64,000 nt of DNA. It comes from Frigidibacter sp. SD6-1 (GTDB taxonomy: Bacteria; Pseudomonadota; Alphaproteobacteria; Rhodobacterales; Rhodobacteraceae). The notes beneath the pieces were generated by a model, which saw only the letters and a program-made list of their open reading frames with translations, did no database searches and was not told the DNA's origin. Location of the stretch: assembly GCF_030143255.1 (NCBI RefSeq), contig NZ_JARJNR010000007.1, positions 186,001 to 250,000 of the forward strand, written 5' to 3'. The translations under genes and the position numbers were made by a program. Below are positions 20,044 through 46,433 of this stretch, piece after piece. Numbering within the stretch: the first letter of the stretch is position 1; each line of letters starts with the position of its first letter.

Positions 20044-20144
20044 GTTTCCTCCTTGCCCCGGTCCCTCTTTATTCGAGGACGCCCCGCGCGCCAATCGAGG
20101 CGGCGTGGATCGGCAAGAGATCGCCACCGTACCGGCCGCCGGCG

Positions 20145-20933
20145 TCAGAGATCGAACGCGGCAAAGACCGGCGCATGGTCGGACGGCTGATCCCAGCCGC
20201 GCGCGGCGCGCAGGATCCGGCTGCCGTGGCCTGCGTTCGCGATATCGGGCGTGGCCCAGATGTGATCCAGCCTGCGACCCTTGTCGGCCGCGTCCCAGTC
20301 GGGCGAGCGGTAGGACCACCAGCTGTAAAGAGTGCCGTTCGGGATATCTTTCCGCGTGATGTCGATCCAGCCGCCCGCCTCCCGCGCGGCGCTCAGGTGA
20401 TCGACCTCAATGGGCGTGTGGCTGACGATCTTCAGAAGCGCCTTGTGGTTCCAGACATCATCCTCACGCGGCGCGATGTTCAGATCGCCCACGAGGATCG
20501 CCTTCTCTGGCCGTTCCTCGCGGAACCAGTCGCGCATATGGGTCAGGAAATCGAGTTTCTGGCCGAACTTCACATTCTCTGCCCGATCGGGAATGTCGCC
20601 GCCTGCGGGCACATAGAAATTATGGATCGTGACGCCGTTTTCCAGCCGTCCAGCCACATGGCGGGCGTGGCCGAGGCTGGCGAAATCGTGCGAGCCGGCC
20701 AGAGTGATCGGCAGCTTCGACAGGATCGCCACGCCATTGTAGCTTTTCTGGCCCTTCGCCACCCGCCAGCGGTAGCCGAGCGCCTCGAACGCTTCGACGG
20801 GGATCTGTTCCTCAAGGCATTTGCATTCCTGCAGGCACAGGATGTCGGGCGCCTCCTCTCCCATCAACTTCGCCACGATCGGTTCGCGCAGGCGCACGGA
20901 ATTGATGTTCCAGGTGGCGACGGTGAAGGTCAT
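20145..20933 (-). CDS. xthA: Exodeoxyribonuclease III
   Basis: Mg-dependent AP endonuclease and 3'-5' exonuclease of base-excision repair; 262 aa. Motifs are ATWNINSVR (residue 6-14), LCLQECK (Glu ligand near 35), a GDLNIAP segment near 150, WWSYR, RLDHIW and the final SDHAPV with the catalytic Asp-His. The ATG at 20933 follows GAGGAGCCGCC. Confidence 0.96.
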   Translation of the reverse strand: MTFTVATWNINSVRLREPIVAKLMGEEAPDILCLQECKCLEEQIPVEAFEALGYRWRVAKGQKSYNGVAILSKLPITLAGSHDFASLGHARHVAGRLENGVTIHNFYVPAGGDIPDRAENVKFGQKLDFLTHMRDWFREERPEKAILVGDLNIAPREDDVWNHKALLKIVSHTPIEVDHLSAAREAGGWIDITRKDIPNGTLYSWWSYRSPDWDAADKGRRLDHIWATPDIANAGHGSRILRAARGWDQPSDHAPVFAAFDL

Positions 20934-21064
20934 GGGCGGCTCCTCGATGATCGGGCGCGACAATGGCAGCTTGGGCGGGAAAGCGCGAGGCCAAATGCTA
21001 GGCCCTTGCCCGGCCCCAATGTGCATGCAAGATGGTTGGCACCGTCCGCCAATGGAAGTGTCTC

Positions 21065-21607
21065 ATGCGCCTTGCCCTTCTCACCGCCCTCCTTGTCGCC
21101 CTCGGCCTGCCCGCAGTCGCCCGCCCGCTGACCGAGGCGGAGGCGAAGGCGCTTGAATCCGCGGTGGCGCGCTATGGCCGGGCGACGATGGCGAGAGAGG
21201 CCGAGAAAGTGGTGGGTACCATCCCGCCGCGCGTGCTGAATGTTGTCGCGGGCACCGCCGGGATCGAGGCAAGGAAGGTGACAGAGACACTCGTTGCCCA
21301 GACGAAAGAGGTGATGAAGACGACGAAGATCACCGATTTCGTCACCGCGCCCGGCCCATGGGAAGGCAATGACGCCACGCTTGCCGACGGGACGGCGGTG
21401 GTCTGGGCGGTGGTCCCCGCGCAGTTCGTGGCCGAAGGCGGCGGCAAGAAGACCCTCAACCAGCAGCCGCTTCTGGCGATCGAAGAAGAGGGCACATGGT
21501 TTTTCAGCCGGATCGACGGCCCGGCCCAGTTGCAGATCGTCGGTTTCGCCTATCCGTTCGTGACGGGGCTGGAACTGCCGCCCGCCACCTCTGTGCCCGC
21601 GAACTGA
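21065..21607 (+). CDS. Hypothetical secreted protein, 180 aa
   Basis: Not recognised. Residues 1-20 (MRLALLTALLVALGLPAVAR) form a signal peptide. The mature protein starts with a charged helix (EAEAKALESAVARYGRATMA) and continues as a beta-rich domain without cysteines, so it is probably periplasmic. It ends 7 nt before the MFS gene and probably shares its transcript. Confidence 0.7.
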   Translation: MRLALLTALLVALGLPAVARPLTEAEAKALESAVARYGRATMAREAEKVVGTIPPRVLNVVAGTAGIEARKVTETLVAQTKEVMKTTKITDFVTAPGPWEGNDATLADGTAVVWAVVPAQFVAEGGGKKTLNQQPLLAIEEEGTWFFSRIDGPAQLQIVGFAYPFVTGLELPPATSVPAN

Positions 21608-21614
21608 CGGCGCG

Positions 21615-22871
21615 ATGGCGGCCGCTCTCCTTCGCCGCAACCGCAACTATCGTCTGCATTTCACCGCAAGCGTGATCTCGAACCTCGGCGATGGCGTGTC
21701 GGTGCTGGCCTTTCCCTGGCTCGCGACGCTGCTCACGCGTGATCCGTTCCTGATTTCCCTGGTCGTGACCGGCGCGCGCCTGCCCTGGTTTCTTTTCGCG
21801 CTGCCCGCGGGCGTCTGGACCGACCGCGCCGACCGGCGGCGGATGATGGTCCGGGCCGATCTGGTGCGGATGGTACTGACCTTCGGCGTGATCGCGCTGA
21901 TCCTCTCGGTGCCCGGTTTGCCGCAGCCCGACACCGCCGGTCCCGCCGCGATCCTCGCGCTTTCGGGCCTCGCCTTCCTCCTCGGTACGGCCGAGGTTCT
22001 GCGCGACAATGCTGCGCAGACGCTGATGCCCGCTATCGTCGCGCCCGCCGATCTCGAACGCGCCAACGGTCAGATGTGGAGCGCCGAGCAGGTGATGAAC
22101 CATTTTATCGGGCCTCCTCTCGCCGGTGCACTGATTGGTCTTGGCATCGCCTGGCCCTTCGGCTTCGACGCAGTGACCTTTGCGGGTGCCGCAGCACTCG
22201 TCGCATTAATGGTGCTGCCGCCTGCCTCGCTTCCGCCGCGCCGCCCCTTTCTGGCGGAACTGAAGGAAGGGCTCGCCTGGCTGATGGCCAATCCGCTCAT
22301 CCGGCGTCTCGCGGTGATCCTCGGGGTGACGAATGCCGTCTTCACCGCCGCCATGACCATGGCCGCGCTTTATGCGCAGGAGATTCTCGGGCTTGACGCC
22401 TTCGGCTTCGGCCTCCTCCTGACCACCGGCGCGGCGGGCGGGGTGCTCGCGGGTCTAGCGGGTCCCGCCATCGCCGCGCGCCTCGGGCCGGAAAGGACAG
22501 TTCATCTTTCGATGGCGATCTTCACCGGCGCCTATTTCATCCTCGGCCTCTGGCCAACGCTTCCCGGTGCGGCGCTCGGCTTCTTCGGCGATGCGTTCGG
22601 CGGGGTCCTGTGGAACGTGGTGACGGTCTCCTACCGCCAAAGGGTGATCCCGCCCGCGCTTCTTGGCCGGGTGAATTCGGTCTATCGTTTCCTCGGCTGG
22701 GGGACGATGCCCGCGGGCGCACTCCTCGGCGGGGCGCTCGTCCGCCTGGGCGAGCCGCATCTGGGGCGTGAAACTGCGCTTCTCGCCCCTTTCGTCATCG
22801 CCGGGATCGTGACGCTGGGGCTGACGATCTATGGCTTCTTTCGGCTGGGATTCCCCGAAGAACAGCCCTGA
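21615..22871 (+). CDS. MFS transporter, EntS-like (MFS_3)
   Basis: Inner-membrane major-facilitator protein, 418 aa and about 12 helices, with the loop 2-3 signature GVWTDRADRRRMM (near residue 60-73) and NLGDGVSVLAFPW in helix 1. The closest family is MFS_3, which includes siderophore exporter EntS and many uncharacterised drug exporters; no siderophore gene is nearby, so the substrate is open. Confidence 0.85.
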   Translation: MAAALLRRNRNYRLHFTASVISNLGDGVSVLAFPWLATLLTRDPFLISLVVTGARLPWFLFALPAGVWTDRADRRRMMVRADLVRMVLTFGVIALILSVPGLPQPDTAGPAAILALSGLAFLLGTAEVLRDNAAQTLMPAIVAPADLERANGQMWSAEQVMNHFIGPPLAGALIGLGIAWPFGFDAVTFAGAAALVALMVLPPASLPPRRPFLAELKEGLAWLMANPLIRRLAVILGVTNAVFTAAMTMAALYAQEILGLDAFGFGLLLTTGAAGGVLAGLAGPAIAARLGPERTVHLSMAIFTGAYFILGLWPTLPGAALGFFGDAFGGVLWNVVTVSYRQRVIPPALLGRVNSVYRFLGWGTMPAGALLGGALVRLGEPHLGRETALLAPFVIAGIVTLGLTIYGFFRLGFPEEQP

Positions 22872-22878
22872 GAAGGAC

Positions 22879-23520
22879 CTAGATCAGCCCCGCCGCGCGG
22901 GCGCCATCCAGAAGGCTTTCGGCCAGATGATGGGCATGGCGCCCATCCGTCGCCTGCATGTCCGGCACCTGCACCACCACCATCCCGGCGGCTTTCGCCG
23001 CCGCCGCACCGGTGTCGCTGTCCTCGAAGGCGATGCAGCGTTCCGGCCGATGGCCCAGACGCGATGCCGCAAGCAGGTAAGGGTCCGGCGCGGGCTTGGG
23101 CCGCGTCACGCAATTCACCGTGACAACCGCACCGAAATAGCGATGAAGCCCCGTCTTCGACAGCTTGTGGTCGGCGCTCTTTCGCTGGCTCGATGTCGCA
23201 ACGGCGCGCGGCAATCCCAGCGCCTCCAGCCGGTCGAGAAGGTCGGTCGCGCCGGGGCGAAGCGGGATGCCCTCCTCCAGCGCGGCAAGGAACAGCCCGT
23301 CCCAGCGGCTACCGAATCGCTCGATGGGGAAATCCTCGCCATAGTGAGAGACGAGCGCCCGCGCGCCGGTGGCATTGTCCTTGCCCACGAGGCCTTCGAA
23401 AAGCCCGTCCGTCCTTGGCAATCCGAGGTCGGCCAGCGCACGATAGCCTGCCACGATCGCGATCCGCTCGGTATCGAGCAACAGCCCGTCAAGGTCAAAG
23501 ATCGCGGCATCGTAACGCAT
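22879..23520 (-). CDS. HAD-superfamily hydrolase (beta-phosphoglucomutase/phosphatase-like)
   Basis: A 213-aa subfamily IA HAD enzyme. Motif I DLDGLLLDT (nucleophile Asp near residue 8), motif II ATSS near 108, motif III Lys in RPKPAPDPYL and motif IV FEDSDTGAAAA are all present, with a helical cap domain between motifs I and II. I chose the ATG at 23520; an in-frame GTG lies two codons upstream. The substrate is probably a small sugar phosphate. It is convergent with the MFS gene. Confidence 0.88.
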   Translation of the reverse strand: MRYDAAIFDLDGLLLDTERIAIVAGYRALADLGLPRTDGLFEGLVGKDNATGARALVSHYGEDFPIERFGSRWDGLFLAALEEGIPLRPGATDLLDRLEALGLPRAVATSSQRKSADHKLSKTGLHRYFGAVVTVNCVTRPKPAPDPYLLAASRLGHRPERCIAFEDSDTGAAAAKAAGMVVVQVPDMQATDGRHAHHLAESLLDGARAAGLI

Positions 23521-23583
23521 TTGCACAGGCCTTTCGCTGGCCCGGTCGCAGAGCCGCGAGGATGCAGGGCGCTGGGCTGGGGT

Positions 23584-23683
23584 GAGAGGCTGGACAACGA
23601 CCCAAGCGGGGCTCGTTACGGCTGCTTCCTTCCGGACCTGACCGGGTTGGCGAGGCGCTCGCCCGCGCCAACCTCTCGCCGCC
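23584..23683 (-). ncRNA. ffs: Signal recognition particle RNA, small bacterial type (4.5S)
   Basis: On the minus strand the conserved SRP helix-8 core GGTCAGGTCCGGAAGGAAGC is present, with GAGAGGTTGG on the 5' side pairing with CCAGCCTCTC on the 3' side to close the long hairpin. Length is about 100 nt. It binds Ffh for co-translational targeting. The exact ends are estimated from the base pairing. Confidence 0.9.
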
Positions 23684-23755
23684 TAGATAGGCTTTGCGCA
23701 GAGGGAATGCAAGCTTGCGCGCATGTCGCGCTTCGGTTGGCCGACAGGAGCGCTT

Positions 23756-23823
23756 GGCCGCTCTTCGGCCCTTCAAGCCTCATCGCTCAGCGAAGAGCCG
23801 CCGCAAGGGGGCGATGAACGGCC
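23756..23823. repeat. Intergenic structured repeat, family B, copy 2
   Basis: Bounded by GGCCGCTC (23756-23763) and GAACGGCC (23816-23823), with the same internal blocks as 11160-11237 in the same order. It lies just downstream of the CpdB-like gene (minus strand), a plausible terminator position. Confidence 0.5.
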
Positions 23824-23838
23824 ACCCGCGGCGCGGCG

Positions 23839-25779
23839 TCAGAAGAGGACCCGGCAGCGCAGGAACCGGGGCGGCGCCGGGCCGACCGTCTCGACCTGCA
23901 GAGGAAGCGCCTCGTGCAGGTGCTCTGCGGCATCGACATGGGTATCGAACCACAGTGCGGTGCCGGGCGGCACGCCGGTCAGCCGCCAGTCGCACTGGGG
24001 GCCAAGACCGATGTTCGCGCCGCTTTCGACGAAATGGCGCAGGACCGTGGTGCACAGGACCAGCGGATCGGCGATCACGTTGTCCTCCCCCAACTCGGGA
24101 TAATTGCCGCCGCCGCCCGCGCGGAAATTGTTGGTGACAAGCAGAAACTCCTGCGATGCCGCGACAGGCGCCCCCCGGAAGCGCAGGTTCCCGATCCGGC
24201 GCGCCCCCGGACGGACGAGGCTGCCATCGGGGTCGTGGCGTGCGGGGACAGACAGGTTCACCTCATAGCTCAGCCCCGCGACCGTGTCGAAATCATAGGG
24301 CCGCGCCCCGGCATGGAGGAGCGGCTGGTCGCCCTGGCCTGGGGTGATCTGGCAATATTGCGATACAGCACGCTCAAGCCAGTCGTGCATCTGGGCGCCG
24401 GTCACGCGCAGGGCGCGGATCGAATTCGGGAAAGGATAAAGATCGTGGATGTGGCGCAGAAGGAAATCGCCCGCCGCGATCCGGGTGAAATTGCACGGGC
24501 CCGCCAGTCCGCCGAACTTGAAGGGGCTGGCCGCCGAAAGGCGCGGCAGATGCGACAGCCCGGCGGCGCCCGCGACCGCCGCCAGCCAGGAAAGCTGGGC
24601 GGCATGAATCAGATCCATCATCGGTCCCGGCAGAACCGGGGCGAAATAGCTGTTGAGCGGGCGGTCGGCCCGCCCGATCGGGCGGCGCACATAGTCCAAC
24701 GTAGTCGCGTGGCAGGATGCGACGGACTGCTCGACCGCAGGGTCGATATCGACACGCGCGACGAACTGGCCGCTTGCATCGCGCAACGCCACGGGTTCCA
24801 GTCGGCTTTCGCTGTCCCCGACGGTCCAGCGCCCGTCCCTGCAAAGAAGCTCAAGGTCGATGACGCCCAGATGCGAGCCGCGAAAGCCGGGTTCGACCGC
24901 CGGCTTTCCGCAGATCCTTCCCCGCTCGGGGTCGACCTCGTCGGTCTGGGGAATGCCTGCGCCGGGAAACAGCCGATGGGTATGTCCGGCGATCACCACA
25001 TCAACCTCGCCAAGCCGCGCGACCTCCAGGGCGACATTGTCGTGCTGCCGTCCGTCGCTGTCGCCGCCGATGCCCGAATGGCAGAGCGCCACGACAATGT
25101 CCGCGCCGCGGCGGCGCAGGTCGGACGCCCAGGCGGCCGCGGCACAGACCTCGTCGCGGGTCTTCAGGCGCCCGGCCAGATGCTTGCGCTCCCAGGTCTC
25201 GACCTGCTGGGGCAGGAGGCTCAGAACGCCGATCTTGACCAGCGCCGGGCAACCCGCGTCATTGACCAGCAGGCGTTCCAGGATCAGCGTCGGTGTGGTG
25301 AAGAACTCGTCCTGACCGGGCGTTGTCCCGAGCCGCCGGGCGATATTGGCGGACAGGACCGGGAAGCGCGCATCGGCGAGCGCTCGTTCGAGGAAGGCGA
25401 TGCCATAACCGAACTCGTGATTGCCGAGGCCGACCGCATCGTAGCCCACCGCATTCATCGCCGCGACGACCGGATGATGGCGGCCCTTCGGCAGCTGCCC
25501 GTCAACGGCAGTCAGCTCGCCCAGGGGGCTGCCTTCGATGAAGTCGCCATTGTCGAGCGTGATGGAATTGGCCACTTCCGCCCTGGCCCGCCGGATCAGG
25601 GTCGTCAGCCGGGCGAGGCCCACCGCCTCGAGCGGACGGTCGGCGGCGTAATCGTAAGGCATCACATGCGCATGGATATCGGAGGTCGCGAGGATCCTCA
25701 GGCCGTATGTCTGCTGCTGCGGTCCGCGAACTGTGTCTGCCAACGCCTTTTCTGTCAGCACCGATGCGCGGCCACGCAA
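23839..25779 (-). CDS. 5'-nucleotidase / 2',3'-cyclic phosphodiesterase (CpdB-like)
   Basis: Two-domain metallophosphoesterase of 646 aa. The N-terminal calcineurin-like domain (about 25-330) has the metal ligands in TSDIHAH, DNGDFIEGSP, GLGNHEFGYG, ALCHSG and AGHTHR; the C-terminal 5'-nucleotidase domain (about 350-610) contains the aromatic substrate stack region and NNFRAGGGGNYP. Family members are usually periplasmic, but no signal peptide is visible here, so the protein may be cytosolic or the start may be misassigned. The longest frame begins at TTG 25779; GTG at 25761 is an alternative. Confidence 0.87.
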   Translation of the reverse strand: MRGRASVLTEKALADTVRGPQQQTYGLRILATSDIHAHVMPYDYAADRPLEAVGLARLTTLIRRARAEVANSITLDNGDFIEGSPLGELTAVDGQLPKGRHHPVVAAMNAVGYDAVGLGNHEFGYGIAFLERALADARFPVLSANIARRLGTTPGQDEFFTTPTLILERLLVNDAGCPALVKIGVLSLLPQQVETWERKHLAGRLKTRDEVCAAAAWASDLRRRGADIVVALCHSGIGGDSDGRQHDNVALEVARLGEVDVVIAGHTHRLFPGAGIPQTDEVDPERGRICGKPAVEPGFRGSHLGVIDLELLCRDGRWTVGDSESRLEPVALRDASGQFVARVDIDPAVEQSVASCHATTLDYVRRPIGRADRPLNSYFAPVLPGPMMDLIHAAQLSWLAAVAGAAGLSHLPRLSAASPFKFGGLAGPCNFTRIAAGDFLLRHIHDLYPFPNSIRALRVTGAQMHDWLERAVSQYCQITPGQGDQPLLHAGARPYDFDTVAGLSYEVNLSVPARHDPDGSLVRPGARRIGNLRFRGAPVAASQEFLLVTNNFRAGGGGNYPELGEDNVIADPLVLCTTVLRHFVESGANIGLGPQCDWRLTGVPPGTALWFDTHVDAAEHLHEALPLQVETVGPAPPRFLRCRVLF

Positions 25780-25980
25780 AGTTCAAACGGCTCGCACCCG
25801 CCTGTCAGCCCCTGATATCAATGGCTTGATCCTACATGAGAATGCGGGGTCGCGCCACCGCGATATGTAACTTCGTACAATAAATCTCCTAATGGTTGTA
25901 TTTTCTGCAACAGTCGGGCGCTCGCTTGTGCCGCTGTCGATCATATGGTCTCAGATGGGCGTTGCGGACCGGAGGGTGAC

Positions 25981-26949
25981 GTGCACGGCGATCCGACAGT
26001 GACCTTTGGGGCGGCCGGTCTCGACCGGGCCGCCGATCTGCGGGCAGACGATACGGCATTGCGTGACCTGGCGGGCAGCGCGGCTGCGCGTTGCCTCGCG
26101 CTCTGGCGCGGCAAGCTTCTGATGTCGGGCGCGCATGTCCTGCGCCTGCCGCCCGCCCATCCGCTGGTCGCGGACCGCGCGTTGCTGTTCCTCGGCCGAT
26201 CCTGCGGCGCGCCGCAATTTGCTGCCGATCTTTCCGACTGGGAACCGGAGGAAATGGCCGACGGCAGCGCCTTCGTCGATCATACGGTCCAGCATCACCC
26301 GCTGATCGGCCCGGATTGGGGCGATGCGGCCGGGTTTGCCGAGTTGCGCACCGTGCTGGGCGATCTCGATCCAGTGGAGGCCGAATTGGCGGCGACGGCC
26401 AAGGCGCTTTGGGCCTGGCACCAGACGCACGGTTTCTGCGCCCGCTGCGGGGCGGAAAGCCGGATCGCCAAGGCCGGGTGGCAACGCGACTGCCCGCGCT
26501 GCGGCGCGCAGCATTTTCCCCGCACCGATCCGGTGGTGATCATGCTGATCACGCGTGCCAACAAGGTGCTTGTCGGGCGCTCGCCCGGCTGGCCCGAGGG
26601 GATGTATTCCTTGCTTGCCGGTTTCATGGAGCCGGGCGAGACGGTCGAGGCCGCCGTGCGCCGCGAGGTGAGGGAGGAAGCGGGTCTTGCCGTCGGGCGC
26701 GTGCGCTATCTGGCCAGCCAGCCCTGGCCCTACCCCTCCTCCCTGATGATCGGTTGCGCGGGCGAGGCGCTGGCCGACGAGCTTTCCATCGACCCGACGG
26801 AAATCGAGGCCTTGCTCTGGCTGACGCGGGAAGATCTGGCAGATGTCTTCGCGGGCACGCATTCCGTGGTCAAACAGCCACGCCGCGGCGCGATTGCCGG
26901 ATATCTGCTTCACGAATGGCTGTCGGGCCGGGTAAGGAACGACTGGTAA
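25981..26949 (+). CDS. nudC: NAD+/NADH diphosphatase (Nudix)
   Basis: Hydrolyses NAD(H) to NMN(H) and AMP and can remove NAD caps from RNA. The 322-aa protein has an N-terminal domain, a zinc ribbon (CARCG near residue 155 and CPRCG near 172), the Nudix box beginning GFMEPGETVEAAVRREV with REEAG, and the NudC-specific SQPWPYPSS. I chose the GTG at 25981 because CGGAGG lies 6 nt upstream; an in-frame upstream start at 25945 is possible. It is divergent from the CpdB-like nucleotidase gene, so both may belong to nucleotide turnover. Confidence 0.92.
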   Translation: MHGDPTVTFGAAGLDRAADLRADDTALRDLAGSAAARCLALWRGKLLMSGAHVLRLPPAHPLVADRALLFLGRSCGAPQFAADLSDWEPEEMADGSAFVDHTVQHHPLIGPDWGDAAGFAELRTVLGDLDPVEAELAATAKALWAWHQTHGFCARCGAESRIAKAGWQRDCPRCGAQHFPRTDPVVIMLITRANKVLVGRSPGWPEGMYSLLAGFMEPGETVEAAVRREVREEAGLAVGRVRYLASQPWPYPSSLMIGCAGEALADELSIDPTEIEALLWLTREDLADVFAGTHSVVKQPRRGAIAGYLLHEWLSGRVRNDW

Positions 26950-26977
26950 CTAGTCAGAGAGGCCTCGGCGGCGAACG

Positions 26978-27451
26978 ATGCGGCTTACCTCGAAAACCGA
27001 TATCGATGCGACGCCCGAAGCGCTCTTCGCGGCGATGACCGACCTTGACTGGATCGAGGGGCTGGCCCGGCGTGGCGGCGTCCGGCTGGAACGTCTGTCA
27101 GGCGCAGGCCCGATGGGGCGCGGATCCTCGTGGCAGGCGGTCTTCCGGCTTCGCGGCAAGGACCGCACCGTCGTCAGCCGGATCGAAGCGCACGAGCCGC
27201 CGCGCCGGCTGCTTTTGTCCGGCGAGACGGTCAGCTTCAGCTTTCTTGTAGAACCGACGCTCATACCCCTGTCGCGGCAGGTGACGCGCCTCGCGCTTTC
27301 CGTCGAGATCAAGCCGCTGACTTTCGGGGCGCGGGTGATGATCCAGACCCTGAAGATCGGCAAATCGAGACTGCAGCAGCGCCTCGACAGGCGGCTGGAA
27401 ACCGCCGGACGGATGCTCAAGGAACGGGCATCGCGCGCCGGTCGCGCCTGA
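26978..27451 (+). CDS. SRPBCC-family (START-like) protein
   Basis: A 157-aa soluble protein that starts MRLTSKTDIDATPEALFAAM, the typical entry into an SRPBCC lipid/ligand-binding fold, and ends with a long basic helix. No catalytic motif is visible. It follows nudC by 28 nt and is likely co-transcribed; its function is unknown. Confidence 0.75.
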   Translation: MRLTSKTDIDATPEALFAAMTDLDWIEGLARRGGVRLERLSGAGPMGRGSSWQAVFRLRGKDRTVVSRIEAHEPPRRLLLSGETVSFSFLVEPTLIPLSRQVTRLALSVEIKPLTFGARVMIQTLKIGKSRLQQRLDRRLETAGRMLKERASRAGRA

Positions 27452-27539
27452 CGCCGCGCAAATACTGATCAAAGTCTTGCTTTGGTCACAAAGCCCGGGC
27501 ACCATCAGTCCCAGGACCCTTTTCCCCAAGGAGACTTTA

Positions 27540-28553
27540 TTGGGCATCAGTGCCTTGACCCCGCCGCCGCATCCGGAAGACCACCACGAGACGCTTCTGG
27601 AATTTTCCAACAACCGGCTTCTGATCGACCTGTGCGGCGAGTTCGACCGCAATCTGGCGCAGATCGAACATCAGTTGGGCATCCATATCCTCAGGCGGGG
27701 CAATCAGCTGGCGCTCGTCGGGCCGTCCGGGCCCCGGGGTCAGGCGGCGGCGATCCTGCAGACGCTCTACGGCAGGCTCGAAGCGGGGCGCGCGGTGGAC
27801 GCGGGCGAGATCGACGCGGTGATCCGGCTGACCGGAGAGGCGGGCACGCCCGCCCCTGTCAGTCTTGACGAACAGCTGGAGCTTTTCGCGCAAGGCAGGA
27901 TCGAGATCCGCACCCGCAAGAAACAGGTCGAGCCGCGCACCGAGGCGCAAAAGACCTATGTGAAGAACCTTTTCCTGAACGAACTGGCCTTCGGCATCGG
28001 CCCGGCGGGCACCGGCAAGACCTATCTGGCGGTGGCCGTGGGCGTGACCATGCTGATCGGCGGCCATGTCGACAAGATCGTGCTGTCGCGCCCCGCCGTC
28101 GAGGCGGGCGAGCGGCTGGGCTTCCTGCCCGGCGACATGAAGGAAAAGGTCGATCCCTACATGCAGCCGCTTTATGACGCGCTGAACGACTTCCTGCCGG
28201 CAAAACAGGTCGAAAAGCTGATGGCCGAAAAGCGGATCGAGATCGCGCCACTGGCCTTCATGCGCGGCAGGACCCTTTCCAATGCCTTCGTCGTCCTCGA
28301 CGAGGCGCAGAATGCCACGACCATGCAGATGAAGATGTTCCTGACCCGCCTTGGCGAAGGCAGCCGCATGGTCATCACCGGCGACCGGACCCAGATCGAC
28401 CTGCCCAAGGGACAGGCTTCGGGCCTTTCGGATGCGGAGCGCATCCTTGACGGGGTAAAGGGCATCAGTTTTAACTATTTCACCGCGAAAGACGTGGTGC
28501 GCCATCCCCTTGTGGCGCGCATCATCGAGGCCTATGACCGCGACGAGCCATAG
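27540..28553 (+). CDS. phoH: PhoH family protein (PhoH/YbeZ-type ATPase)
   Basis: P-loop ATPase linked to RNA metabolism, usually paired with the endoribonuclease YbeY. The 337-aa protein has an N-terminal KH-like part (about 20-100), Walker A GPAGTGKT (near residue 160), Walker B VVLDEAQN and the sensor ITGDRTQIDLP. I chose the TTG at 27540 because AAGGAG lies 6 nt upstream. The last residues EAYDRDEP and the stop lie on copy 1 of a 20-bp direct repeat; copy 2 at the head of ybeY reads EAYDRDDGATG in the same frame, which looks like the original end of this gene. Confidence 0.93.
   Translation: MGISALTPPPHPEDHHETLLEFSNNRLLIDLCGEFDRNLAQIEHQLGIHILRRGNQLALVGPSGPRGQAAAILQTLYGRLEAGRAVDAGEIDAVIRLTGEAGTPAPVSLDEQLELFAQGRIEIRTRKKQVEPRTEAQKTYVKNLFLNELAFGIGPAGTGKTYLAVAVGVTMLIGGHVDKIVLSRPAVEAGERLGFLPGDMKEKVDPYMQPLYDALNDFLPAKQVEKLMAEKRIEIAPLAFMRGRTLSNAFVVLDEAQNATTMQMKMFLTRLGEGSRMVITGDRTQIDLPKGQASGLSDAERILDGVKGISFNYFTAKDVVRHPLVARIIEAYDRDEP
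28527..28546 (+). repeat. 20-bp direct repeat, copy 1 (3' end of phoH)
   Basis: GAGGCCTATGACCGCGACGA, identical to 30041-30060. It codes for the last residues of PhoH. The two copies bracket 1,494 bp that hold only the M16 peptidase gene and short flanks. Confidence 0.9.
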
Positions 28554-28624
28554 GCGCGATCTATCGTCATAGTTGTGCCTCAATTCTGGGGAAACGTCTC
28601 CGCGTTGGTAAGGAGAGATGACCC

Positions 28625-29905
28625 ATGTTCGAAGTTAAGCGCCATTGCACGGTTCTGCCGAATGGTATTCGGGTGGTCAGTGAGCGCGCGGACAATTTTA
28701 GTGGCGTCGCGGTCGGCGCGTGTTTTGGGGTCGGTTCGGTGCACGAACCGGCCGAACAGGCCGGGATCGCGCACATTCTCGAGCATCTGATTTTTCGCGG
28801 AACCGAAACTCGGTCCGAAGAGGCGCTGCAAACCGCCTTTGCTGAACTCGGCGGCCACGTCAACGGCACGACCCACCCCGACCGTACAACCTACACCGCC
28901 ACGGTCCTGCGCGATGACTTCGGCCGAGCGCTTGGGCTCTTTGCAGAGATGCTCGCCGCGCCCGCGCTGAGTGAGGATGACCTTGCCCTCGAAAAGAGTA
29001 TCGTGAACGAGGAAAACTGTCGCGGGTGCCACAATTGCACAATGTCCGAGGCGTTCTACGCCACCGCATTCCCTGACCAGAACATCCGTCACCCGGTGAT
29101 CGGCTACGAAGAGACACTGGAGGCGCTGACGCGCGAAGACCTCCTGGCCTTCCATGGCCGCTTCTATGTAGGTCGCAATCTGACGGTTTCGGTTTGCGGA
29201 GATCTTTCCCACGAGACAGCCGTGGCCGAGGTCGCCAGGGCATTTGCACACTTCCCGGCCGGGGAGGAGGCAGGCTACCCGCCCTATTCCTACGCGGGCG
29301 GGGACATGCTCCTTGGCAGCAATGGCACCGATGCGAGCGTGTGGATCGGGTTCGACATTACCGGACTGGGCGAAGCGCAAAAGCGGGCGCTCTTCATGTT
29401 CTGCGATATTGTCGGTGGGCATCCGCAGTCCCTTCTCATGCACGAATTGCGCCGCAAGCGTGGTCTCGTCTATGCTGTCTGGTCCACCATCGACACTGTT
29501 GCACGACGTGATATTTTCAAGCTCTACATCAGCGGACAGGCGGCGAAGATCGGCGAGATCAGCAATGTCACGATCGCCACGGTGCGCGCCGCCGCTGACG
29601 GGCTTGACCCGGCAGTCCTGACCGAAGGTCAGCGGCGCCATCACGTCGGTACGCTGATGGGACAGGACGACCTTGCGTCCCGCGTCGACGATATGGTGAC
29701 GGATATCACCGAACTCGGTCACGTGACCGAAGTCCAAGAGCGGTATCGCGCCTATCAGGCGCTCTCGGTCGATGACCTCAGAACTGCTGCAAGGGAGATG
29801 CTGTCCATCAGCCCGACTATCGTGATCCGCGCGCCGTTACGCCAGGCGCCCAAGTTTATGCATTTGCGCGAGCAACTTTTGGGCAGGCGACAGAAAGCGG
29901 CCTGA
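28625..29905 (+). CDS. M16-family zinc metallopeptidase, inserted between phoH and ybeY
   Basis: A 426-aa M16 protein related to mitochondrial processing peptidase and PqqL-type proteases. The inverted zinc motif is HILEH at residues 50-54, with the distal ligand probably Glu130, exactly 76 residues after His54. Directly after it comes CRGCHNC (132-138), cysteines not normally seen there. The C-terminal half-domain has the RRKRGLVYAVWS element of substrate binding. No signal peptide, so cytosolic as encoded. The start follows AAGGAG. It sits where phoH and ybeY are normally contiguous, between 20-bp direct repeats, and its composition is less GC-rich, which indicates acquisition. The substrate is unknown. 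Confidence 0.88.
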   Translation: MFEVKRHCTVLPNGIRVVSERADNFSGVAVGACFGVGSVHEPAEQAGIAHILEHLIFRGTETRSEEALQTAFAELGGHVNGTTHPDRTTYTATVLRDDFGRALGLFAEMLAAPALSEDDLALEKSIVNEENCRGCHNCTMSEAFYATAFPDQNIRHPVIGYEETLEALTREDLLAFHGRFYVGRNLTVSVCGDLSHETAVAEVARAFAHFPAGEEAGYPPYSYAGGDMLLGSNGTDASVWIGFDITGLGEAQKRALFMFCDIVGGHPQSLLMHELRRKRGLVYAVWSTIDTVARRDIFKLYISGQAAKIGEISNVTIATVRAAADGLDPAVLTEGQRRHHVGTLMGQDDLASRVDDMVTDITELGHVTEVQERYRAYQALSVDDLRTAAREMLSISPTIVIRAPLRQAPKFMHLREQLLGRRQKAA

Positions 29906-30040
29906 CAAGCGTAGCAGGCCAGAGAGGGGATTGGGCAGATTACTCTTGTAGAGGTCTAGCGTCAGGCACGCTTCGTCGGCTATTTCTCGCCGAAATCGGC
30001 GTCGGTTTCGCGACTGACCCGTAACGACGTTGCAGCGCTT

Positions 30041-30060
30041 GAGGCCTATGACCGCGACGA
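30041..30060 (+). repeat. 20-bp direct repeat, copy 2 (head of ybeY)
   Basis: Identical to 28527-28546. Read in the phoH frame it continues as EAYDRDDGATG and a TGA that overlaps the start of ybeY, so this copy appears to be the original phoH-ybeY junction. Confidence 0.9.
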
Positions 30061-30566
30061 TGGAGCCACTGGTTGACATACTGATCGAGGATCCGCGCTG
30101 GAACGGGCTGGATCTTGAGGCTTTGGCCGAAGCGGCGGCGCGTGCCACGCTGGCCGAGCTTGGCCTGCCGGGCGAGGGGTTCCTCATCAGCCTTCTCGGC
30201 TGCGACGACAAGCGGATCGCCGTGTTGAACGCCGATTTCCGGGGAAAGCCGCAGCCGACCAATGTGCTGTCGTGGCCGTCGGATGAACGTGGCGCGGCCA
30301 CCGACGGGGGCCAGCCCGCCCGGCCCCGGCCCGGGTTCCCGGACATGCCCGAGGAGCTGGGCGACGTGGCGATCGCCTGGGAAACCTGCGCCCGCGAGGC
30401 CGAGGAGCAGGGCAAGGCGATGACCGACCATGTGAGCCATCTTCTGGTGCATGGGATCATGCATCTTCTGGGCTATGATCACATCCGTGACGGCGATGCG
30501 GCGCTGATGGAGGCGACCGAGGCGCGCGTGCTGGCCGCAATGGGCATTGCCAATCCCTATGAGTGA
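30060..30566 (+). CDS. ybeY: Endoribonuclease YbeY (rRNA maturation factor)
   Basis: Zinc-dependent single-strand endoribonuclease for 16S rRNA 3' end maturation and ribosome quality control; 168 aa. The signature HLLVHGIMHLLGYDH (near residue 132-146) gives the three His ligands. The ATG at 30060 starts inside the second direct-repeat copy; ATG at 30048 is an in-frame alternative, and no strong Shine-Dalgarno is present. That fits a gene that was formerly coupled to phoH. It now lies about 150 nt downstream of the M16 gene. Confidence 0.94.
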   Translation: MEPLVDILIEDPRWNGLDLEALAEAAARATLAELGLPGEGFLISLLGCDDKRIAVLNADFRGKPQPTNVLSWPSDERGAATDGGQPARPRPGFPDMPEELGDVAIAWETCAREAEEQGKAMTDHVSHLLVHGIMHLLGYDHIRDGDAALMEATEARVLAAMGIANPYE

Positions 30567-30601
30567 CGAGATGATCGGTTGCAAGAAACGGACGGACCGG
30601 A

Positions 30602-31480
30602 ATGGGTGAACAGGCAGATACGGTCTCCGCCGAGGGCGGAGAAGGCGCTGCTGGCGACAGTAGTCGCGAGGGCGGATTTTTCGGGAGGATCCTCAGGGCC
30701 TTTTCGGCTCCGGACACCGAAGAAGACGCCGATGACGGGCAAAGCGGCGCCTCGCCCGCCAAGGTGGCCCTGCCGGGGGTCGGAAATCTCAGGAAGCTGC
30801 GCGTCGACGACATTGCCATTCCCAAGGCCGAGATCGTCGCCGTCCCCTCGACCATCCCCCTCGACGATCTGATCGCGCGTTTCAGGGAAAGCGGCTTTTC
30901 GAGGTTGCCGGTCTACAAGGGCTCGCTCGACAATCCGCTGGGGCTTGTCCACCTGAAGGACCTGGCGCTCGACTATGCCTTCGCCGAGGTGAAGCCGAAG
31001 TTCAGCCTGACGAAGATGCTGCGCCCGCTGATCTATGCGCCACCGTCGATGACGCTGGGCGTGCTCTTGCAGAAGATGCAGGCCGAACGCACCCATATGG
31101 CGCTTCTGATCGACGAATATGGCGGCGTCGACGGGCTGCTGACGATCGAGGACATCATCGAAGAGGTGATCGGCGAGATCGACGACGAACATGACGAGGC
31201 CGAGGACAAGCTGTGGGTGCTGGAAAAGCCCTTCCAGTATCTGGTGCAGGCCCGCGCCCCCCTTGAGGATTTCGAGGCCGAGATCGGCATGCGGCTGGCC
31301 GACGAGGAAGACCGAGAGGAGATCGACACGCTCGGCGGTCTGGTCTTCATGCTGGCGGGTCGGGTGCCCCTGAAAGGCGAGACGGTCGAAAGCGAGGGCG
31401 GCGTGATCTTCGAGGTGGTCGAGGCCGATCCGCGCCGGGTCAAGCGGCTGAGAGTGCGCCTGCCGCGTCCGCAGGAATGA
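30602..31480 (+). CDS. corC: CBS/CorC-domain protein (HlyC/CorC family)
   Basis: Cytosolic 292-aa protein with an acidic low-complexity N-terminus (1-60), a CBS pair (about 70-190, including KLRVDDIAIPKAEIVAVPS and HMALLIDEYGGVDGLLTIED), and a CorC_HlyC transporter-associated domain at the C-terminus. The family is linked to Mg/Co efflux but often acts in ribosome or envelope functions when next to ybeY and lnt. It overlaps lnt by 4 nt (ATGA). Confidence 0.92.
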   Translation: MGEQADTVSAEGGEGAAGDSSREGGFFGRILRAFSAPDTEEDADDGQSGASPAKVALPGVGNLRKLRVDDIAIPKAEIVAVPSTIPLDDLIARFRESGFSRLPVYKGSLDNPLGLVHLKDLALDYAFAEVKPKFSLTKMLRPLIYAPPSMTLGVLLQKMQAERTHMALLIDEYGGVDGLLTIEDIIEEVIGEIDDEHDEAEDKLWVLEKPFQYLVQARAPLEDFEAEIGMRLADEEDREEIDTLGGLVFMLAGRVPLKGETVESEGGVIFEVVEADPRRVKRLRVRLPRPQE

Positions 31481-33003
31481 ACCGACTGACGGCTTTATCG
31501 CGGGCCGCCGTGCTGCCCGCGCTCGCGGGCGTGGCGGCGGCGGCCGGGCAGGCGCCCTGGGGGCTCTGGGCGCTGTCACTTTCTGGCTATGGCGTGATCC
31601 TGTGGCATGTGGCCAGCGCGGAGGGCTGGCGTCAGCGTTTCTTCCGGGGCTGGGCGGCGGGGACAGGGCATTTCGCTGCGGCGATGTTCTGGATCGTCGA
31701 GCCCTTTCTGGTCGATCCCGCGCGCGACGGCTGGATGGCGCCTTTCGGTGTTACTTTCATGGCGACGGGGCTTGCGCTTTTCTGGGGCGCGGCGGCGCTG
31801 GGCGCGGGGCTGGGGCGCGGCTGGGCGGGCCGGGTTCTTGGCGCGGCACTGGGCTTCGGTCTGGCAGACCTTGCGCGGAGCTATGTTTTCACCGGCTTTC
31901 CCTGGGCGCTTGCCGGGCATGTCTGGATCGACACGCCGGTGGCGCAGATGGCAGCATATGGCGGGCCGATCCTTCTGTCGGCGCTGACCCTCGGTCTTGT
32001 CGGCCTGCCGGTTCTGGCCCTTGGCCGGATTGGGCCGCTCGTCGTCGCCTGCGGCTGTGCCTCGGCGCTCCTCGCTGGGGTCTGGGCGGCGGGCAACGTG
32101 CGGCTCGCTCAGCCGCTCGCGCCGCGCGATCCGGCGATCCAGGTCCGCCTTGTCCAGCCGAATGCGACCCAGTCGCTGAAATGGCAGGCGGGCATGTGGA
32201 ATGTCTTCCTCGACCGGATGGTCGCGGCTTCCGCCGCGCCGTCCGAAGTGCCGCTCGACCTGATCGTGTGGCCCGAAACCTCGGTACCCTATCTTCTCGA
32301 CAGCGCCGGACCGATTATCGAGGAGGCGCGCGTCGCCTCCGGAGGCGTGCCGCTGGCGGTCGGCCTCCAGCGCGAAGAAGGATTGCGCTACTTCAACACG
32401 CTCGCCGCCTTCGACGGCGAAGGGCGGCTGACCGGCTTTTATGACAAGCTGCATCTGGTGCCGTTCGGCGAATATATCCCGCTGGGCGACCTCTTCGGAC
32501 GGTTCGGCATTTCCGCCTTCGCGGCCCAGGCCGGGAACGGCTATTCGTCAGGCACGGAGGCGAAGCTTCTCGACCTCGGCCGGGCCGGGCGCGTCCTGCC
32601 GCTGATCTGCTACGAAGCCGTCTTCCCCCAGGACCTGCGTGCTTTTCCGGGCCGCGCCGACTGGATCCTGCAGGTCACGAACGACGGCTGGTTCGGATCG
32701 CTCGCCGGGCCCTACCAGCATCTAGCGCAGGCGCGGCTTCGGGCGATCGAACAGGGGCTGCCGCTGTTGCGCGATGCCAACACCGGCGTGACCGCGGTGA
32801 TTGATGCGAAGGGGCGGGTGCTGCAGACCCTGCCTCTCGACACCGACGGCTGGATCGACACGGCGGTACCGCCCGCCCTGCCCGCGACGCTTTACGCCCG
32901 CACTGGCGACATACCGGCAACGATGTTGCTTCTGGGTTGCATAGGGGTCATTGCGCTGAACAGGCGCCGACTGGCCATTGACCGTGGGGCACAAGGGCGC
33001 TAG
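31477..33003 (+). CDS. lnt: Apolipoprotein N-acyltransferase
   Basis: Inner-membrane enzyme adding the third acyl chain to lipoproteins. The 508-aa protein has about six N-terminal membrane helices (to about residue 210), a nitrilase-like periplasmic domain (about 225-470) with Glu in [11 protein letters not shown], Lys in [12 protein letters not shown] and Cys in [10 protein letters not shown], and a last helix near 480-500. Its start overlaps corC, so corC and lnt are coupled. Confidence 0.95.
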
Positions 33004-33018
33004 GGCTGCCCCTCGAAC

Positions 33019-33064
33019 CGCCACAACGGCTTCCTGGCGTGGCGGGGGTAACCCCAATGGAGCA
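33019..33064 (+). promoter_or_regulatory. SAM/SAH riboswitch upstream of metK
   Basis: Matches the short Rhodobacterales SAM/SAH aptamer. Stem CGCCAC (33019-33024) pairs with GTGGCG (33039-33044) around AACGGCTTCCTGGC, and the 3' element AATGGAGCA (33056-33064), which includes the Shine-Dalgarno GGAG, can pair with the CTTCC loop as a pseudoknot. Ligand binding would hide the ribosome site of metK and switch translation off. Between stem and pseudoknot strand there is an additional small hairpin GGGG-TAA-CCCC (33045-33055). Confidence 0.85.
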
Positions 33065-33068
33065 TTTC

Positions 33069-34235
33069 ATGTCCCGACAAGACTATATCTTCACTTCCGA
33101 GAGCGTCTCGGAAGGGCACCCCGACAAGGTCTGCGACCGGATCTCGGATGCCGTCCTCGATGCTTTCCTCGCCGAGGACCCCCTTGCCCGCGTCGCCTGC
33201 GAGACCTTCGCCACCACCGACCGCGTCGTGATCGGCGGCGAAGTGCGGGGCCCGGCCACTGTCATCCAGCGGGTCGAGGACATCGCCCGCGCCTGCGTGC
33301 GCGATATCGGATACGAGCAGGACGGGTTCCACTGGGCGAACCTCAAGGTCGACAGCTATCTGCATGCGCAATCGGCCGACATCGCCCAGGGCGTCGATGC
33401 GGGCGCTGGCAAGGACGAGGGCGCGGGCGATCAGGGCATCATGTTCGGCTATGCGGTCGACGAGACGCCCGAGCTGATGCCCGCCCCGATCCAGTATGCC
33501 CACGCCATCCTGCGCCGTCTGGCGGAAGTCAGGAAGAACGGCATCGAGCCACGCCTTGGCCCCGACGCCAAGTCGCAGCTGTCGATCCGTTATGCGGGTG
33601 GCAAGCCGGTAGAGGTCACCTCGCTCGTCCTGTCGACCCAGCATCTCGACGCGTCCATGTCGTCTGCGGACGTGCGGGCTCTGGTCGAGCCCTATATCCG
33701 CGAGGTCCTGCCCGAAGGCTGGCTGACGGCGAAGACCGAATGGTGGATCAACCCGACCGGCAAGTTCGTGATCGGCGGGCCCGACGGTGACGCGGGCCTG
33801 ACCGGGCGCAAGATCATCGTCGATACCTATGGCGGCGCGGCACCGCACGGCGGCGGCGCCTTCTCGGGCAAGGACCCGACCAAGGTCGATCGCTCGGCCG
33901 CCTACGCCGCGCGTTATCTGGCGAAGAACGTGGTGGCGGCCGGGCTTGCCAAGCGCTGCACGCTGCAGCTGTCCTATGCGATCGGCGTGGCGAAGCCGCT
34001 CTCGATCTATGTCGACACCCACGGCACCGGCCAGGCGGACGAGGCGGCGATCGAGAAAGCCGTGGCCGAGGTCATGGACCTGACGCCGCGCGGCATCCGC
34101 ACCCATCTGGGCATGAACAAGCCGATCTTCGCCCGCACCTCGGCCTATGGCCATTTCGGCCGTGCGCCGGAGGCGGATGGCGGCTTCAGCTGGGAAAAGA
34201 CCGATCTGGCCGAGGCGCTGAAGAAAGCGGTGTGA
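33069..34235 (+). CDS. metK: S-adenosylmethionine synthase
   Basis: Makes SAM from methionine and ATP; 388 aa. Motifs are [19 protein letters not shown] near residue 8-26, [12 protein letters not shown] near 120, a glycine-rich [19 protein letters not shown] near 262 and a C-terminal AYGHFGR. I chose the ATG at 33069 because GGAG of the riboswitch lies 7 nt upstream; the in-frame ATG at 33057 falls inside the riboswitch. Feedback through the SAM/SAH riboswitch is expected. Confidence 0.97.
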
Positions 34236-34242
34236 GCAGGTG

Positions 34243-34264
34243 CCGGGACCCTCACGGGTTCCGG
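34243..34264 (+). other. GC-rich hairpin after metK
   Basis: CCGGGACCC and GGGTTCCGG (one G-T pair) form a stem with a TCAC loop a few nt after the metK stop. No T-run follows, so it may stabilise the transcript end or start termination together with the hairpin at 34291. Confidence 0.45.
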
Positions 34265-34290
34265 TCTTCGCTCCGCAATGCTAGGACAGG

Positions 34291-34313
34291 ATGCCCCGCG
34301 AGGGGCATCTTTC
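34291..34313 (+). terminator. Hairpin terminator between metK and queF
   Basis: ATGCCCC (34291-34297) and GGGGCAT (34302-34308) form a perfect stem with a GCGA loop followed by CTTTCATT. The short T-stretch suggests intrinsic termination before queF, or attenuation of queF. Confidence 0.6.
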
Positions 34314-34328
34314 ATTCCGGAGACAAGG

Positions 34329-34793
34329 ATGACCAAGACCGATGTGTCAGGCCTGACCCAGCTCGGGCAGGCGACCGAAGCGCCGCAGAGCCCCGAGGCA
34401 GCGGTGCTGGAACGGGTGCCTGCCGGCCATTCAGGGACGCTTTATGTGGTGCGCTTCACCGCGCCGGAGTTCACCTCGATCTGCCCGATGACCGGCCAGC
34501 CCGACTTCGCCCATATTGTCATCGATTACGTGCCGCAGGACTGGCTCGTCGAAAGCAAGAGCCTGAAGCTCTACCTGCATTCCTTCCGCAATCACGGCGC
34601 CTTCCACGAGGATTGTTCGATCGATATCGCCAAGCGGCTGGTCTCGCTGCTGGAACCGGTCTGGCTGAGGATCGGCGCCTACTGGTATCCGCGTGGCGGC
34701 ATTCCGATCGATGTCTTCTGGCAGACCGGCGCGCCGCCCGAGGGGGTCTGGATCCCCGATCAGGGCGTGGCGCCCTATCGCGGGCGGGGATAG
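34329..34793 (+). CDS. queF: NADPH-dependent 7-cyano-7-deazaguanine reductase
   Basis: Reduces preQ0 to preQ1 in queuosine biosynthesis. The 154-aa short (type I) form has the catalytic Cys in [13 protein letters not shown] (near residue 55), the E-S-K-S-L-K-L QueF motif, and HEDC near 95-98. I chose the ATG at 34329, preceded by GGAGACAAGG. No other que genes are in the window. Confidence 0.94.
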
Positions 34794-34795
34794 GT

Positions 34796-34815
34796 TCGCC
34801 CGCTTGCGCGGGCGA
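34796..34815 (+). terminator. Hairpin after queF
   Basis: Perfect 8-bp stem TCGCCCGC/GCGGGCGA with a TTGC loop starting 3 nt after the queF stop. It is followed by the hairpin repeat at 34818, so the pair probably ends the queF transcript. Confidence 0.5.
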
Positions 34816-34817
34816 CC

Positions 34818-34870
34818 CGCCGGGAGGGCTCTGCCCTCCCGGACCCTCCCGGAGTATTTTCAGACAGAAA
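34818..34870 (+). repeat. G-rich hairpin repeat ending in GGAGTATTT, copy 2
   Basis: Stem CGGGAGGG (34821-34828) / CCCTCCCG (34834-34841) around CTCTG, then ACCCTCCCGGAGTATTTT and an A-rich tail. Same layout as 43558-43607, and as 4109-4154 on the other strand. Located between queF and trmB. Confidence 0.65.
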
Positions 34871-34901
34871 GTGGAGACGGTCAGGCAGGACCGGAGACGA
34901 G

Positions 34902-35594
34902 ATGGCGGACGAGCGCGGAACGGGACGGCGGAATTTCTACGGGCGGGTGCATGGCAAGACGCTGAGGCAGAGCCAGAAGGCCTATCTGGCCGAGGATCTG
35001 GGGCGTTTGAGCCTTGAGCACATCTCGGTCGCCGACAATCCGGGTCGCGAGACGATCGATCTGGGCGGGGTTTTCGGGGCCCGGCCCTTGTGGCTGGAAG
35101 TGGGCTTTGGCGGCGGCGAGCATCTGGTGCATATGGCGGCGCTGTATCCGGAGGTGGGCATCGTCGGCTGCGAGCCCTTCGTGAATGGGGTCGCGATGCT
35201 GCTGGGCAAGATCCGCGCCGCGGGGGTCGAGAACCTGGCGCTGCATCCGGGCGATGTGCGCGACCTCTTCGACGTCTGCCCGGACGGAACCTTCGAAAAG
35301 GCCTTCCTCAACTATCCCGATCCCTGGCCGAAGGCCCGCCATCATCGCCGCCGCTTCGTGACGCCCGGCTATCTGGCGGAGCTGCACCGGGTCTTGAAGG
35401 CGGGAGCGGAGTTCCGGGTGGCGACCGATATTCCCGATTATGTCCGCCAGACGCTGGAGGAAGTGCCGAAGGCGGGCTTCGCGCTTGTCGGGCAGGGCGA
35501 CGCGCCCTGGGAGGACTGGATATCGACGCGCTACGAGCAGAAGGCGCTGCGCGAGGGGCGGGCGCCGCATTATCTGACATTCCGGCGCATCTGA
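34902..35594 (+). CDS. trmB: tRNA (guanine-N7-)-methyltransferase
   Basis: SAM-dependent formation of m7G46 in tRNA; 230 aa. The Rossmann motif is LEVGFGGGEHL (near residue 66), followed by GCEPFVNG, NYPDPWPKARHHRRRF (the substrate signature near 138-153) and a C-terminal TRYEQKALREGR. Metabolically it is a user of the SAM made by metK upstream. Confidence 0.96.
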   Translation: MADERGTGRRNFYGRVHGKTLRQSQKAYLAEDLGRLSLEHISVADNPGRETIDLGGVFGARPLWLEVGFGGGEHLVHMAALYPEVGIVGCEPFVNGVAMLLGKIRAAGVENLALHPGDVRDLFDVCPDGTFEKAFLNYPDPWPKARHHRRRFVTPGYLAELHRVLKAGAEFRVATDIPDYVRQTLEEVPKAGFALVGQGDAPWEDWISTRYEQKALREGRAPHYLTFRRI

Positions 35595-35815
35595 GCGCCT
35601 TCGGCGGCGCGACGGATGGCAGGTCCACCCCTTCCGGCTGCAGGGAGAGGCTTGGCGCAGCATGAGCGCGCCGGGGCGTTGCGAAGCATGGGTCAGATCG
35701 CAGGCAACGCGCGGCAGATGCTCATCTGGGCGGGACCCGCCGTCCTGTCCCACGGCGTCCGGCCTTCTGCTTGCCGTCGCTTATGCGCCCGCGCTCCTGA
35801 AGCCGCGCCTTGCGA

Positions 35816-36478
35816 TCACGGCCCCGTCTGCACGCCCTGCGCATCGGGGTTGAGGAATTCCGCCTCGATCCGGATCGTCACCAGATCGCCGACACCGATC
35901 GTGGTGCCGGGGGCGGGAATGCCGAAACCCATGCCGAAATCGGACCGGAAAATCGCCCCTTCGGCGGAAAAGCCGATCCGCGCGCCCGCGTCGAGCGGAT
36001 GGCCCGCATAGCCGCCGTTGTAGCGCACGCGGAGCGTGATCGGCCTCGTGGTCCCGTGCAGCGTCAGGTCGCCGGTGACGGCGGCCTCATGCGGGCCGGT
36101 CTGGCGGACGATGGTACTTGCGAAGCGGATCTCCGGGTGATTGGCGGCATCGAGGAAGCTTTCGCCTGCAAGGATCGCGTTGAAATCGTAAGCCGGGTCC
36201 GGATAGAGCGTTTCGACCGAGGAGGGATCGACCGTCGCGGTCAGGGTCATGGATTCTGGATTGTCCGGATCGAAGCCGAGTGTCGCGTCCATCTTGCGGA
36301 AAAATGCGGTGTAATCCGAAAATCCCAGGTGGCTGACCGAGAAGATCAGGCGTGCATGGGCCGGGTCGAGTTGGTAGCTGCCGGGCGGCGGCGCCTGCGA
36401 GGGGCCGGACGTTTCCTCGGCCGCAGCGGACAGGCCTGCGAACAGCAAGGCGGCAGTGGAAAGGGCGAAGTGGCGCAT
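35816..36478 (-). CDS. YceI-family periplasmic lipid-binding protein
   Basis: A 220-aa exported lipocalin-like protein. The signal peptide is MRHFALSTAALLFAGLSAAA, followed by YQLDPAHARLIFSVSHLGFSDYTAFF, the family start, and GDLTLHGTTRPITLRV near residue 150. YceI proteins bind polyisoprenoid or amphiphilic ligands. I chose the ATG at 36478, after AGGAGGCC; the frame continues to 36718 through repeat sequence. Confidence 0.9.
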   Translation of the reverse strand: MRHFALSTAALLFAGLSAAAEETSGPSQAPPPGSYQLDPAHARLIFSVSHLGFSDYTAFFRKMDATLGFDPDNPESMTLTATVDPSSVETLYPDPAYDFNAILAGESFLDAANHPEIRFASTIVRQTGPHEAAVTGDLTLHGTTRPITLRVRYNGGYAGHPLDAGARIGFSAEGAIFRSDFGMGFGIPAPGTTIGVGDLVTIRIEAEFLNPDAQGVQTGP

Positions 36479-36650
36479 CGTGGCCTCCTGATGCCGCGGA
36501 GCCTCGGCGCCCGGGCCGCGTGCGTCAAGGCCGGGGCGCTTCACCATCGCGCGATTGGCAAAAGCCTGCTCTTCGCCGCTCTTCGCAGGGGCGCCCCGGC
36601 GAAGAGAAGCGAAGCGCACGATGAGCCGCCCTGTGCGCCACCCGGTCAGG

Positions 36651-38687: not shown

Positions 38688-38783
38688 CGGGCACCTCCGG
38701 AACCGATCTTCACTGTAGCCTCACGAAGCCTCTGGTCAAATCGCGTCAGGAAATGTTGATTGGGCGGCAGATCGGAGGGCACG

Positions 38784-41378: not shown

Positions 41379-41384
41379 ACACGA

Positions 41385-41462: not shown

Positions 41463-41472
41463 CGGAAGAGCG

Positions 41473-43549: not shown

Positions 43550-43557
43550 GGTCGGAA

Positions 43558-43607: not shown

Positions 43608-43685
43608 AGGGGCGTCAAATAGGTCAATTATATTGACTTAGTTTTTGATGCATCCGAGAGTGGCGCCGATTGCGGGAGGGATTCG

Positions 43686-44912: not shown

Positions 44913-44915
44913 GCG

Positions 44916-46432: not shown

Positions 46433-46433
46433 C

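Follow-up and report, generated by a model that had tools for sequence, protein, structure and literature searches.

The phoH-ybeY locus of Frigidibacter sp. SD6-1 raises the question of how a single gene for an M16 metallopeptidase came to lie between two housekeeping genes, with a perfect 20-bp direct repeat at its two limits. We addressed this question in a stretch of 64,000 nucleotides (the window), whose numbering is used throughout. The original prediction had read the arrangement as site-specific integration at the 3' end of phoH and as a possible small mobile islet targeting this gene.

Limits of the insertion and the empty site

The 20-mer GAGGCCTATGACCGCGACGA was found in two identical copies, as had been predicted (Table 1). 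These copies are the only sites in the 3.9-Mb genome that match it with zero or one mismatch, and the next best site carries two mismatches. The nearest relative was Frigidibacter sp. RF13 (G002), and the window aligned to the syntenic RF13 contig in seven blocks of 86-90% DNA identity, with the alignment reaching 54628. Two of these blocks meet at the site (window 19597-28546 with RF13 32426-41384, and window 30041-35766 with RF13 41365-47094); they overlap in RF13 by exactly the 20-mer, and 1,494 bp lie between the two copies in the window, or 1,514 bp of extra DNA when one repeat copy is counted. The repeat marks the limits of the insertion relative to RF13 to the exact base, and a chance repeat was therefore ruled out. 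The other indels of the window relative to RF13, among those with ends listed, showed end overlaps of just 3-5 bases. At least one longer repeat pair (at about 55971/58001) was present among the 60 of 69 repeated 18-mers listed for the window.

A single copy of the 20-mer at an intact phoH-ybeY overlap was observed in all three congeners in which phoH was found (RF13, G003 and G004); in the fourth of the four congeners (G001), phoH was not found at the threshold, and this genome stands outside the count. The overlap is uninterrupted in these three genomes, in agreement with the prediction that copy 2 represents the original junction, and relatives were not found to carry the M16 gene at this site. 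The locus thus shows direct repeats at both limits and a single copy at the empty site, as is characteristic of integrative elements, and a lineage-specific insertion exactly between the two 20-mer copies is confirmed.

Table 1. Features of the phoH-ybeY locus in window coordinates.
Feature	Position	Strand	Evidence
phoH	27540..28553	+	PhoH Pfam PF02562, E 3.7e-93; TTG start at 27540 by eye
Repeat copy 1, 20 bp, attL-like position	28527..28546	+	Own-genome search, RF13 alignment
Insert left end: substitute phoH end, stop, AAGGAG ribosome site	28547..28624	+	
M16 peptidase gene, 426 aa	28625..29905	+	Pfam Peptidase_M16 and M16_C
Insert right end, non-coding	29906..30040	+	No relative except short, borderline matches; fold not unusually stable
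Repeat copy 2, 20 bp, attR-like position	30041..30060	+	Own-genome search, RF13 alignment
ybeY, native start	30060..30566	+	YbeY Pfam PF02130, E 1.9e-30

The consequences for the two flanking genes could be read directly. Copy 1 was expected to be the coding end of phoH, and it closes this gene as EAYDRDEP-stop, with the stop at 28551-28553 and the DEP-stop supplied by the insert. Copy 2, read in the phoH frame, gives EAYDRDDGATG and a stop (30074-30076) across the ybeY start, again as anticipated; bases 30060-30076 represent the former phoH-ybeY overlap. After EAYDRD, the phoH product has therefore lost DGATG and gained EP. The target was thus the 3' end of a gene that is restored by the insert, another property of integrative elements. 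The ybeY gene retained its ATG and the preceding 19 bases, including GAGG. The running overlap is gone here and present in the congeners, and the predicted loss of the overlap at insertion holds. Both housekeeping genes are unbroken because the overlap region was duplicated, and a repeat that spans the ybeY start region may have favored survival of the insertion. A scan for the sigma-70 consensus revealed no promoter-like site upstream of the M16 start as far back as the phoH stop, and its total was near background (two sites found against 0.9 expected).

The same junction was compared across a family sample, in which phoH was found at the threshold in 30 of 31 genomes, our own included. The ybeY start ranged from a one-base overlap with the phoH match to 181 bp past its end in 25 of the 29 other genomes. 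Wider gaps were seen in one genome with 814 bp (L038) and in one with about 2.1 kb (L033, L098), and ybeY was not found in the examined stretches of two genomes (L021, L023). The exact 20-mer was also present in 27 genome_contigs stretches, with one copy apiece and a second copy in none. The two observations named beforehand as contradicting the prediction were thus both absent. Sixteen of these stretches contained a phoH match followed by ybeY, some being the same records as family-sample genomes (e.g. L072, L067 and L084); the gap was one overlapping base in 13 of the 16 and 88 bp, 152 bp and 399 bp in the remaining three, the last with a partial phoH match (L073). The other 11 stretches had no phoH match.

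Single genes were also observed in the gap in two of the 29 other family genomes, which belong to two other genera. The 814-bp gap (L099:147-962, G010) holds one ORF6N-domain gene and the 2.1-kb gap (L098:396-2243, G029) one PIG-L-domain gene. Like the insertion described here, each adds one extra gene to the same gap in the same bacterial family; unlike it, neither shows a convincing duplicated phoH end, and the cargo is unrelated. The repeat search, with 20 of 22 repeat families listed, revealed nothing at the phoH end in L099. A 28-nt pairing at 71% connects the phoH end in L098 with a segment inside the PIG-L gene, away from ybeY; it was taken as chance rather than as a duplicated end. No further repeat-flanked insertion at phoH was found in the other loci examined, and the search for genomes with both an insertion and a duplicated phoH end yielded no convincing case among them. 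Given that single-gene additions occur in this gap elsewhere in the family, the argument from location alone is weakened.

The M16 peptidase gene

The 1,494 bp between the repeats contain a single gene and no recombinase, exactly as first described. The encoded protein carries both the Peptidase_M16 and the M16_C domain of Pfam, and the zinc-site residues H50, E53, H54 and E130 are all in place. With the HxxEH motif, the distal glutamate and both domains present, the gene is an M16 zinc peptidase as judged from its sequence. The AAGGAG ribosome site lies 8 nt upstream of the start (by eye). The best solved relative was the bacterial processing protease 3hdi (E 2.3e-39), presumably the Bacillus halodurans-type enzyme. 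We also observed three cysteines, C132, C135 and C138 (CxxCxxC), directly after the third zinc ligand E130; the other 19 distinct rows of the alignment all lack this pattern.

Relatives of the protein were distant throughout. Three further M16 places in the same genome were 22-26% identical, and the best matches in the family (149-genome sample) and the class (385 genomes), with the own genome included, were 28-32% identical. Besides the own genome, one family genome and four class genomes matched at E 1e-55, and the phylum sample of 398 genomes gave none but the own at E 1e-60; the family, class and phylum samples overlap. In both class and family, the best matches adjoin a gene read as thrC (by eye), likewise annotated in S. 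meliloti. This thrC-linked alphaproteobacterial M16B type and the 3hdi type share both M16 domains, HxxEH and the distal glutamate with the protein described here, which differs from the M16B types in an identity of about 22-32% among the matches listed for own genome, genus, family and class. The gene also has a very long branch, is not beside thrC and encodes the extra Cys132, Cys135 and Cys138. A pattern search for close relatives in genome_contigs matched 17 stretches, none of which was confirmed, and a peptide-pattern search of viral contigs found none. Plasmids gave 21 matching records, all below 60% identity, and phages gave 15 records by tblastn at 24-36% identity. A defense role was rejected, as no PADLOC match was obtained at E 0.01.

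The gene looks foreign. In the tree of 22 rows (20 distinct, two row pairs being identical), the M16 branch had a length of 7.47 and arose from an open fork, so the tree does not place its origin; the gene is not shared with relatives, and no close one was found. The lower GC content is real but mild: the gene has 60.9% GC against 65.7% for the window, and 45 of 628 overlapping windows of the same size, including those over the M16 gene itself, were as low or lower. The GC3 of the gene was 71%, compared with 79-83% in five neighboring genes.

Origin of the insert

Integration into tRNA and protein-gene ends restores the gene end on the upstream side and displaces the native end downstream. The same polarity was found here, with the phoH end restored upstream and the displaced native end kept downstream. 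Because the repeat is long and precise and has this polarity, we regard conservative, site-specific integration at a 20-bp core in the phoH 3' end as the best single account of the locus, with a probability of roughly 0.45. In this scenario, DNA with a single M16 peptidase gene and a single 20-mer would have arrived after the split from Frigidibacter sp. RF13, as a small circle or as a larger element that later shrank, and the incoming 20-mer would have recombined with the identical phoH 3' end in the fashion of a tyrosine recombinase. The integrase would have been supplied from elsewhere or lost. The phoH end would thereby have been replaced by that of the insert, with the native end staying downstream and still providing the ybeY start region, and the M16 gene would probably share the transcript of the phoH-ybeY operon and use its own ribosome site for translation. 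The recombinase, the circle and the source of the insert are all inferred.

Comparison with known tyrosine-recombinase elements at the 3' ends of conserved genes revealed both likeness and difference. Repeats at the limits, a restored gene end and a displaced native end are common to both, whereas the present insert is only 1.5 kb long, has one cargo gene and no integrase, and has ends for which no relative was found. As the insert carries no integrase of its own, it was not classed as an autonomous element. Five places with a tyrosine-recombinase domain were found in the genome, on contigs 3, 10, 11 and 22, and none on contig 36, where the insert lies. The empty site contains an 11-7-11 dyad, CATCATCGAGG CCTATGA CCGCGACGATG, with 9 of 11 positions paired; among 3,190 control cores drawn from the window, 53 had at least 9 of 11 paired, which makes the dyad uncommon but not decisive. 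When the inner ends of the insert were joined around the 20-mer, the dyad was absent in the same register, and the best pairing was 8 of 11 in another register.

Independent signs of a recombinase or an element were not found. Neither recurrence at the site nor ends common to other elements were seen in the sets searched. The degenerate 20-mer was absent from viral contigs; the joined insert ends gave no match below E 0.4 in plasmids and none below E 6 in phages; and across the viral, phage and plasmid collections no att-like site rose above noise. At the limits used, neither the whole insert nor its left end had a plasmid match, and the right end had no second copy in the own genome and nothing beyond one 28-base match in 394 family genomes. 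Neither non-coding end was unusually stable when folded (z of -0.22 for the right end, 29903-30045, and -1.05). With no second islet, autonomous partner, att-like site above noise or integrase in or beside the insert, the mobile islet was not supported, while the insertion itself, the empty site in three of three congeners and the restored phoH end were sustained. None of the titles and abstract openings searched described phoH as an attachment site, and PMC5502288 and PMC12594344 appear to concern other matters. It would be a long shot that the phoH 3' end in Rhodobacterales is an attachment site for very small, integrase-less gene circles mobilized in trans, with this M16 orphan and its three cysteines by the zinc site as the first cargo recognized.

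A serious rival, if on the unlikely side, is that a staggered double-strand break, with nicks 20 nt apart, captured a foreign fragment in a one-off event, both ends being filled in and joined. The repeat would then be a target duplication of arbitrary length, kept since phoH and ybeY would both go on working only where their overlap region is duplicated. Such a capture under selection for both genes gives the same anatomy with fewer parts: it can do without a recombinase, an att partner and an element family, which were all looked for in vain, and the 20 bases that were duplicated, starting at GAGG and ending with the first base of the ybeY ATG, are the part that ybeY needs. The single genes in the gap in two other genera, with no convincing duplicated end, also fit this explanation. 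On the other hand, the insert is tidy, consisting of a complete gene that has a ribosome site of its own, and a filled-in overhang of 20 bases would be long.

It is quite unlikely that a circle entered by a single crossover through a chance or inherited 20-bp identity, whether RecA-type or illegitimate, with no dedicated recombinase. This exchange would yield the same anatomy, and the 20-mer does occur outside phoH in other bacteria, as in the stretches above without a phoH match; however, no source circle was found among plasmids, and RecA exchange usually requires a minimum length that 20 bp does not exceed.

Transposition, whether casposon-like or of another kind, with a target duplication of 20 bp would also place a direct repeat exactly at the limits of the insert, but we consider it very improbable. 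No inverted repeat joins the insert ends and no transposase is present, so the combination of terminal inverted repeats with a transposase or casposase is lacking, and a non-autonomous transposon or casposon would still require the terminal repeats; no copy with matching ends was found in related genomes. An ancestral M16 gene or an assembly error is barely credible: only one genome of the species was compared, but the site is empty in all three congeners with phoH found, lies inside a contig of 288,793 bases and has flanks colinear with RF13.

The locus offers a clean, datable case in which a gene has entered a pair of overlapping housekeeping genes and broken neither. If a recombinase made the insertion, phoH joins the protein genes that serve as attachment sites; if not, the locus shows that a single capture can leave a perfect repeat at a gene end, a feature commonly taken to indicate site-specific integration.

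Minor matches and other differences in the window

Several borderline matches of the insert ends were considered separately. Within the right end, 38 bases (29984-30021) were 90% identical (E 0.01) to three Sinorhizobium plasmids, where the match falls in the early part of a frame that we take to be a trimethylamine-methyltransferase-like gene. A remnant of such a gene at the right end was not established, and the frames listed for the locus of the lone 28-base match in the family include no such gene. Matches of the insert ends to a recombinase locus (L119; E 0.03-0.12, with the core match inside a resolvase-like frame by eye) were taken as chance, as was, provisionally, an inverted match (88% over 16 nt) between the phoH interior and the left end (28547-28562).

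Elsewhere in the window, about 176 bases at 6188-6360 are missing in RF13; this segment contains G- and C-rich inverted stretches with the look of a palindromic repeat element (by eye). At 35764-35766, RF13 is about 1,065 bases longer, inside a 414-residue NnrS-like frame (by eye), and the window appears to be without most of this frame. Finally, a 153-nt direct repeat of 92% identity was observed at 55937-56089 and 57967-58119, 2,030 bases apart and beyond the end of the RF13 alignment, with transposase-like and repeat-rich frames between the two copies (by eye).
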